Shown: positions 24,795 through 27,206 of the stretch, piece after piece
Numbering within the stretch: position 1 is the first letter of the stretch
How the letters are laid out: each line of letters begins with the position of its first letter
Source of the DNA: Verrucomicrobiota bacterium
GTDB lineage: Bacteria; Verrucomicrobiota; Verrucomicrobiia; Palsa-1439
NCBI GenBank assembly: GCA_016871575.1
Contig: VHCW01000026.1
Span: forward strand, 1-52,117
Length of the DNA: 52,117 bases
Direction: 5' to 3'
Position numbers and translations under genes: made by a program
Notes under the pieces: model-generated
The model's input: only the letters and a program-made list of their open reading frames with translations
Databases searched by the model: none
Told to the model about the DNA's origin: nothing

Positions 24795-27206
24795 TTATTC
24801 GTAAGTGAGAATCGCTGAGGCAGTGCAATCGCGGTCGGCGACGACGCGCACCCAGTAGGCGCCGAACGCTTCCGTGAATTGATGCTCGGTTGCTTTGCCG
24901 GGTGCAACGTCGAATGTCTTCCAGATTCGCCAGAGGCCGGTGCCGGTGATGTCAATCTCAACGCGAATCGAGACTGCTTTGTCGGCGGAGAGTGTCAGCG
25001 ATTTCTTGTCGTAACCGGTCATCAGATACGGGTCGCTCGGCGCGACGGCTTTGACGACGGTGTCTTTCCACGGGCCGCCGACTCCGCGCGGTTTGCCAAG
25101 CTGCCACAGATCATCTACAACACCAACCCAGAGCGACACTTTCCCGTCGTCGGAACGCGCCTTCCCCTCGATGCCGGACATTACGAGCAAGCCGCGATAT
25201 GAACAGTAATCGTGAATACGAAGGTTGTGCGTGGCGACGGGTCGGATTTTGGCGAACCCGCCGGCGTTGTTGGCAGGCAGTTCGTAGAACGTGCCGCCGG
25301 CGTTGAAGAGGTCGCGCTCGGTGCATACCTCACGGCAGATGCGGCCACCGGTAAGTTCGCCCTTCGGGATGCGCCAACGGTTGCCGGATTCGTCCACGTA
25401 AAGAATGGAGGCGGCATCGGCAATGAGCACGTCTTTCGGGATGGCAACGTTCTTCTTGAGATACCCCTCGGCTTTCGCATCATTCACGCGCTTCAACTTC
25501 AGGTCCGCGCCCATCTCGTAGTAACCGGCATCGCTGGCGAAGGCGAGTGTGCGCAAATTATCGCCGCGCGCGCGAATCAATCCGCCGGTGGCCGGCTGTG
25601 CGGCAGCAGGCGCGGGGCGTTTGAGCGGCGTGTTACTGTACTGGAAGAAGACGGTCGCCTTCGCGCAATCGCGATTGGCGCGGACGCGCACCCATGTGCC
25701 CTTCTCTTTCGGCGGGAACTCGATCCACGTGTAGCCGCGCACCTCGACTTCGCGCAGTTTCTTCCACTGGCCGTTGCCTTTCGTGTCCACCTCGAAGGTA
25801 AACGTCACCGGAGTGTTGTTGGCCGACTCTGTGAGTCGGCGCGTTGCGGGAATGGGCATCGCTTTCGCCGACTCGCAGAGTCGGCCTACACCGTCTTTGC
25901 CTTCAAGGTCGGCGGTCAGATGCGCGCCGCGCCGGTCGAACCCGGCGAACAGGAACGGATCGGACGGCTCGCCAGCCTTGACCGGGTCATCGAACCAGAC
26001 AGCGCCGCGCCCGATCGGCGTGCCGAGACGGTTGATGCGCTCTGGCTCGGTGAACCAAAGGTTCGACTGCGATTGACCGGGGCCGGCGATGTTGCCTTTG
26101 GCTTTGCGTTTGTTGAGAAATTCGCTCTGGGCAGTGTCGTCGCAACCGAACACGAGACGGTCGTTCCACCGGCAAAAATCGCCGATGACCTTCAGGTACG
26201 TCGAGCGCGGCGCGATGCCGGCGGAGTTTTTCGCGGTGAAGGTTTTGGGGAATCGCCAGAACATGCCGTGCATGGTCATGAGCAAATCCGTCTCCCCGAT
26301 CTCGCGGATGCGGGGCCATTCGGTGTTCCAGCCGTGCGCGCCGTCATAGCAATGGCTCGCTTTCGGCAGCCGGTACGCGTGCCACTGGCCGCGGTCGAGC
26401 AACATGAGGATGAGTGAACGGTAGTCCCAACCGACGCTCCAGATTGGGTCGGTGTCGGGGTTGGGATTGCCGTGGATGCCGCCGGGGCCGGTGACTTCGG
26501 TGAACTGGTTGCGACGGATGACATGCCACGCGGGTGATTTGCCGTCCCATTCCGCGAGGCAGCCGGAGGGGATGGATGGATTCACCAGCGCTTCTTTGCT
26601 GCGTTCGCCGTTGTTGGCGTAAACGACGCGGCCTTGGCCGGAATAAAAACCTTTGCCGTGGTAGCCGGGCAACAGCGTGCCCGCGAGGCCGCCTTTCTGC
26701 AGGTTGCCGTCTTGATAGAGTTCCTTCACTTCGAGTGTCTTCACATCCACCTCGTAAAAGCCTTCCTCCATCGTGGCGTAATAAATCTTGCCGGCAGGAT
26801 CAGCGAGGTGGCGGGCGTTGCCGGTGTGGCGGCCGAACATCTTCGAGTAGGGAATCACGCGGACGTTGCGCTGCGCGTCAATCGCGTACGGTCCGATGAA
26901 AAGCTGGTTCGATTCGCGGTGAATCATCCGGTTGGCCGGTGTGCCGCCGATGCTTTCGGGGCGGATGATTTGCTGGAGGTCGGGCGTGATTTCGTAAAGT
27001 TTGTCGGACGAACCTTTCGGTTTGTGCGGCGCGTAGGTGATGACCCAGAGCCGGCCGGCCCACGGCACGACGGCGCCGGTGCCGCACTCGCCTTCGTTGT
27101 TGAAGTAGGCGAGGTGCGGGTAAATGCCCGACACTTGAATCGGCTCCGCAGCCAAGGTGATTCCTGCCGTCGCCAGCAACAGGACAGATAATATGGTTGT
27201 TTGCAT
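24795..27206 (-). CDS. Large secreted protein of unknown function with internal duplication and a repeat-encoded insert
   Basis: An 803-residue protein with a signal peptide (MQTTILSVLLLATAGITLAA). The N-terminal 400 residues contain strand-rich, propeller-like segments (VVPWAGRLWVITYAPHKPKG, YYATMEEGFYEVDVKTLEVK, WRFPKTFTAKNSAG). Two copies of a module of about 80 residues are visible: residues about 414-523 (PSDPFLFAGFDRRGAHLTAD ... TWVRVRANRDCAKATVFF) and 723-803 (PSDPYLMTGYDKKSLTLSAD ... YWVRVVADRDCTASAILTY). The first copy holds an extra segment of about 26 residues, GRLCESAKAMPIPATRRLTE, that is exactly a palindromic DNA repeat read in frame. No family is recognised; substrate and role are unknown. 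Confidence 0.8.
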   Translation of the reverse strand: MQTTILSVLLLATAGITLAAEPIQVSGIYPHLAYFNNEGECGTGAVVPWAGRLWVITYAPHKPKGSSDKLYEITPDLQQIIRPESIGGTPANRMIHRESNQLFIGPYAIDAQRNVRVIPYSKMFGRHTGNARHLADPAGKIYYATMEEGFYEVDVKTLEVKELYQDGNLQKGGLAGTLLPGYHGKGFYSGQGRVVYANNGERSKEALVNPSIPSGCLAEWDGKSPAWHVIRRNQFTEVTGPGGIHGNPNPDTDPIWSVGWDYRSLILMLLDRGQWHAYRLPKASHCYDGAHGWNTEWPRIREIGETDLLMTMHGMFWRFPKTFTAKNSAGIAPRSTYLKVIGDFCRWNDRLVFGCDDTAQSEFLNKRKAKGNIAGPGQSQSNLWFTEPERINRLGTPIGRGAVWFDDPVKAGEPSDPFLFAGFDRRGAHLTADLEGKDGVGRLCESAKAMPIPATRRLTESANNTPVTFTFEVDTKGNGQWKKLREVEVRGYTWIEFPPKEKGTWVRVRANRDCAKATVFFQYSNTPLKRPAPAAAQPATGGLIRARGDNLRTLAFASDAGYYEMGADLKLKRVNDAKAEGYLKKNVAIPKDVLIADAASILYVDESGNRWRIPKGELTGGRICREVCTERDLFNAGGTFYELPANNAGGFAKIRPVATHNLRIHDYCSYRGLLVMSGIEGKARSDDGKVSLWVGVVDDLWQLGKPRGVGGPWKDTVVKAVAPSDPYLMTGYDKKSLTLSADKAVSIRVEIDITGTGLWRIWKTFDVAPGKATEHQFTEAFGAYWVRVVADRDCTASAILTYE
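25822..25885. repeat. Paired palindromic repeat inside a coding sequence
   Basis: Two hairpins of core GCCGACTC/GAGTCGGC (25822-25829 with 25833-25840, and 25867-25874 with 25878-25885) are separated by 26 nt. They lie within the 24795-27206 gene and are translated as residues about 441-462. The flank continues CTACA. The frame stays open through both hairpins. Confidence 0.9.

Follow-up and report, generated by a model that had tools for sequence, protein, structure and literature searches.

The window, by which we mean the whole 52,117-nt stretch of DNA analysed, carries on its minus strand (24795..27206) a gene for a beta-propeller-like protein of 803 aa with two beta-sandwich-like modules, read without an internal stop across all 803 codons. 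The protein matched no family in a Pfam and NCBIfam search, and a Foldseek comparison with the PDB brought up only weak resemblance to propellers, the highest query-normalised TM-score in the 50 rows listed being 0.26; an Rfam scan of the whole window gave nothing reaching the gathering score. Self-alignment placed the two module copies at residues 414-523 (25638..25967, minus strand) and 723-803 (24798..25040, minus strand), which are homologous (E = 1e-10). As the original prediction had claimed, the first copy holds an extra segment that is missing from the second.

Within the first copy lies a REPIN-like doublet of 72 bp (25818..25889), made of two inverted 23-nt GTAG REPs and a 26-bp spacer (25841..25866; over 22 doublets measured, the spacers range from 9 to 30 bp). 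Each unit consists of a tetranucleotide, an 8-bp stem (GCCGACTC/GAGTCGGC) and a 3-nt loop, and the two palindromes, at 25822-25840 and 25867-25885, are perfect. Unit 1 (25867..25889, minus strand) reads GTAG followed by GCCGACTC TGC GAGTCGGC and gives VGRLCES in the frame of the gene; unit 2 (25818..25840, plus strand) has a perfect stem and a tetranucleotide altered to GTTG, a change seen in no other unit found in the genome. Read in the minus-strand frame of the gene, the doublet makes up host codons about 440-463 and leaves that frame open. As single-stranded DNA, the doublet plus 8 bases of flank at either end gave a folding energy of -30.3 kcal/mol (z = -7.16), with none of 200 shuffles as good. 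An in-frame hairpin doublet within this gene had been predicted, and the perfect palindromes, the open frame and the repetition across the genome bear this out.

The exact palindrome is present at 24 sites in the 5.19-Mb genome, a draft assembly of 257 contigs, as against none for the reversed control pattern, which excludes a chance origin. A pattern of GTAG with three free stem positions recovered 43 exact units, and the three free pairs were all Watson-Crick in 42 of them, one unit having a G-T pair. The stem types were ACT/AGT (22 units), CTT/AAG (13), ACA/TGT (5), CCT/AGG (2) and ATA/TGT (1), including four different Watson-Crick types. Sixty stretches taken from related genomes contained 76 such units, of which 68 were fully Watson-Crick, 4 had G-T pairs and 4 were broken. 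This compensation within stems suggests recognition of the hairpin itself. Family matches with up to one mismatch were detected in at least 18 of the 57 genomes searched (own genome included), few of which were rich in copies. The window unit is a GTAG-type REP: GTAG stands immediately 5′ of a palindromic stem-loop (in one exact unit, the other having GTTG), the family is dispersed and multi-copy, and the 8-bp stem and 3-nt loop fall within the limits of 5-13 bp and 2-20 nt given in Table 1 of Di Nocera et al. 2013 (PMC3733652, in the part cited here). The doublet as a whole is REPIN-like, an inverted REP pair with a 26-bp spacer that can fold as one hairpin, in a genome that has a RAYT gene.

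Nine Y1_Tnp matches were found in the genome. One of them, on contig C57 (C57:3590-3856), lies between two doublets of the GTAG REP family and scores 93 bits against NCBIfam NF047646 (REP-associated tyrosine transposase, REP_Tyr_transpos; cut-off 80); its flanking genes presumably encode two glutamate synthase subunits. In genome G005, of the same family, a protein 61% identical to the C57 RAYT likewise sits between two doublets. A broken third REP unit (L126, C57:3404-3426) stands ahead of the doublet that precedes the RAYT gene. The other eight Y1-type transposase matches (on C35, C132, C58, C27, C7, C49, C33 and C68) do not adjoin the GTAG REP family.

Homologues of the host protein were drawn from 80 named loci and from the 57 related genomes (one per species), 16 of which (own genome included) matched. 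Near full-length reading frames came from 103 loci. Of these, 77 (76 clusters at 97% identity) entered an alignment with the window protein. Opposite query residues 434-462, 76 of the 77 have no residue and the remaining one has 3. Two anchor positions stand 53 residues apart in the query; in 67 of the 77 homologues their distance is 24, and in the rest it ranges from 20 to 27; an earlier 90-row alignment gave the same picture for the inserted segment. The segment missing from the homologues comprises 87 bp (29 codons; 25821..25907, minus strand), with borders that shift by a few codons with the alignment. The earlier reading of this segment as an insertion therefore stands, with a net size of 29 residues (87 bp) instead of the 22 given there. 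The comparison of homologues that had been proposed as a check thus identifies an inserted element, not an ancestral loop, and none of the homologues aligned pairs the same peptide with a different DNA sequence. An AlphaFold model of the host protein from a 78-row alignment had a mean pLDDT of 92.2, and its only run of at least three residues with pLDDT below 50 was 437-456. This run is predicted to sit in a beta-hairpin turn, with strands 425-433 and 467-474 on either side. In the model, the inserted 29 residues are a floppy, predicted disordered loop.

The original prediction had further proposed looking for in-frame doublets elsewhere in the genome. Our search covered 28 REP loci and omitted eight two-mismatch places (on C4, C15, C18 (46484), C32, C52, C61, C78 (20698) and C124); at the two-mismatch threshold, the reversed control pattern yields 11 matches. 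Six of the 28 loci are in frame within genes, adding five genes to that of the window: a photolyase (DPRP, PF04244), an acid-amine ligase (GSP_synth, PF03738), an FtsX permease (PF02687), a RecQ protein, in which the repeat (606-625) lies between RQC (to 606) and HRDC (from 630), and a small protein. At five of these loci, the frame is open through the element, with codon-usage support on both sides (weak, 0.05-0.07, on the left side of FtsX). The sixth, the small protein, failed the codon score (left side negative), yet has a paralogue without the element in the same genome. Judged by sequence, this paralogue is an empty site, compatible with mobility of the REPIN as a unit. The gene beside the small REP-bearing protein is one that we take to be a sigma-factor gene. 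At two more of the 28 loci (L119 and L132), the TAG of GTAG terminates a gene, and the other 20 gave no sign of in-frame reading or of supplying a stop. Stops of this type are also seen at L230, L231, L233, L234, L236 and L237 in G005 and at L244 and L247 in G013; at L230 and L231, the TAG is used by reading frames of both strands.

In the GSP_synth protein, 23 residues are missing in all five homologue rows that reach the site (an AlphaFold model from 6 sequences had a mean pLDDT of 47.9), and in the photolyase, 14 residues are missing in all six. For FtsX, the closest relative (G001:C234) is without the element and 60 bp shorter there. One REP is present in each of two FtsX paralogues, G001:C23 (L226) and G009:C89 (L218), and ends at the same codon as the own-genome doublet; 25 nucleotides of REP DNA are identical, against only about 76% protein identity on that side. 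L226 and L218 belong to two genera; on the right side, identity between them reaches 97%, and that of either with the own-genome FtsX protein about 76%. The REP peptide of RecQ is present in none of its homologue rows, whose linkers are similar in length, and this case is therefore a linker replacement, not a gain.

The net gains were 87 bp in the window, 69 bp in GSP_synth, 60 bp in FtsX and 42 bp each in the photolyase and the small protein, all multiples of 3. The elements themselves, measured from GTAG to CTAC, are 72, 58, 64, 59 and 59 bp long in the same order; the frame was kept even though four of these five values are not divisible by three. The differences between net gain and element length (+15, +11, -4, -17 and -17 bp, respectively) show that these were not simple clean insertions. 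No target-site duplication was recognised when the junctions were inspected by eye.

GTAG repeats inside ORFs were described by Di Nocera et al. (2013; PMC3733652), who, in the sections cited here, found them most abundant in Opitutus terrae, reported that in-gene dimers encode 20-30 residues, many of them in DNA-repair genes (photoreactivating enzyme and helicases included), and already noted TAG stop codons supplied by REPs. Opitutus terrae belongs to the Verrucomicrobiota. The elements studied here share with those, as far as these sections describe them, the GTAG unit, inverted dimers, DNA-repair gene hosts, TAG stops and a nearby RAYT, and differ from them in genome and host genes. Reports of GTAG REPs within genes, Verrucomicrobiota included, date from 2013 (PMC3733652, same sections), which makes this a known kind of event: the phenomenon is already in print, and the window instance is new as far as the literature searched shows. 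Similarly, the doublet resembles the REPINs of Bertels and Rainey (2011; PMC3116915, in the part cited) in its inverted REP pair with spacer, its predicted single hairpin and its RAYT link. For P. fluorescens SBW25, that part of the paper gives 'only 14' gene-overlapping 16-mers in 1,067 occurrences, as compared to 6 of 28 in frame here (binomial p = 1.5e-6, for counts made differently). By build, the units can also be likened to those of the S. maltophilia REPtron Sm, which in the passages cited are 23 nt long with GTAG, an 8-bp perfect stem and a 3-nt loop (PMC8266576). In that REP system, a change to GTTG abolished cleavage (PMC8266576, same passages), and the window copy may by analogy have lost its mobility.

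The element had earlier been called REP-like and set beside the coding palindromic elements of Rickettsia. Its REP-like identity holds, as a GTAG-type REP/REPIN with its own RAYT; the link to Rickettsia is an analogy of outcome. The Rickettsia elements, about 150 bp long and in ten families according to the portion of the source cited (PMC10969869), are likewise palindromic repeats in frame in unrelated genes (many there). Unlike them, the element described here is 72 bp long rather than about 150 bp, and is GTAG-tagged and RAYT-linked (PMC10969869, same portion).

Our preferred reading, to which we assign a probability of roughly 0.87, is that a REPIN-like GTAG doublet spread by a RAYT landed in a turn of the host protein with the frame kept, and that the resulting loop is tolerated, not selected. 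The doublet would have been mobilised in the genome by the C57 RAYT, acting as an HUH/tyrosine single-strand transposase, and would have inserted at the turn between the two beta-strands. Such doublets are open in two to five of their six frames, so that insertions with a net length divisible by three, and without the TAG of GTAG in frame, are read through as a flexible loop of some 20-30 residues. We infer that other in-gene insertions would have been purged, and that the loop would be neutral to the host protein; the simplest reading is that this insertion survived because the frame was kept. The window offers a clean, countable case of a RAYT-linked mobile repeat adding protein sequence. 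Empty and filled sites stand side by side, one pair of them in a single genome, so that rules of survival (frame, loops, linkers) become testable. For annotation, VGRLCES- or CRPTLRV-like stretches in this group should be regarded as element-derived.

A stronger version would make in-gene REPINs recurrent, site-biased protein innovations, with REP DNA taken up, apparently on two occasions, at one and the same codon in two FtsX paralogue groups, and the window copy, its functional tetranucleotide lost, now a fixed and exapted loop; we consider this quite unlikely. The original prediction spoke of domestication, which would mean that the inserted peptide is useful and its amino-acid sequence kept by selection. 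The GTTG of the window unit, unique in the genome, would fit, as a copy with the change that abolished cleavage in S. maltophilia (PMC8266576, in the passages cited) may by analogy be immobile and fixed; a changed tetranucleotide is also present in the GSP_synth copy, but in some copies outside genes too. Moreover, the segment is predicted to be disordered, the in-gene copies sit in unrelated proteins, and the FtsX copies are identical in DNA, not just in peptide. In the single genome found to have the segment, we saw no sign of selection on the peptide. We therefore do not retain the term, and hold domestication to be quite improbable.

Alternatively, the hairpin could serve as a nucleic acid within the gene, for example in mRNA stability, translation pausing or supercoiling, with the peptide as a by-product. 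The stable fold of the doublet and the full pairing of stems in 42 of the 43 exact genomic units agree with this, but recently mobile copies, which a RAYT has to recognise, should have perfect stems just as well, and copies outside genes show the same perfect stems, which leaves such a function very improbable. Fusion of an intergenic repeat into the gene by assembly or binning is conceivable in a draft of 257 contigs, given that repeats break assemblies, but the element, which has its own spacer, is placed mid-contig, the frame is intact on both sides, and five sister cases exist in the genome, four of them with a measured frame-keeping net length; we give it hardly any weight. An ancestral protein loop resembling the repeats by chance is refuted by the empty homologues, whose record titles come from several phyla, and by the genome-wide repeat, and its probability is close to nil.

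We also looked at REP clusters in other genomes, counted among the matches listed and the stretches giving clusters, an incomplete sample. In G005, a gene was spanned by score in 3 of the 12 clusters among the matches listed, and two further spans look antisense. The span in a gltD-like gene was confirmed against the G000 protein, with 23 residues inserted. G050 gave one weak 127-aa span among the matches listed. No gene span was seen among the clusters listed from G036 (17), G056 (15), G013 (6) and G020 (3), nor in the single clusters listed from G001, G006, G018 and G032.

At several loci, the REP doublet lies at a fixed offset (33, 52 or 34 bp) inside a larger element whose terminal inverted repeats are CCTCCGGTAAC/GTTACCGGAGG. 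These loci are L114, L117, L121 and L130 in the own genome, L271, L272, L274 and L280 in G036, and L249 in G013. The larger element looks like a MITE with the REPIN as cargo.
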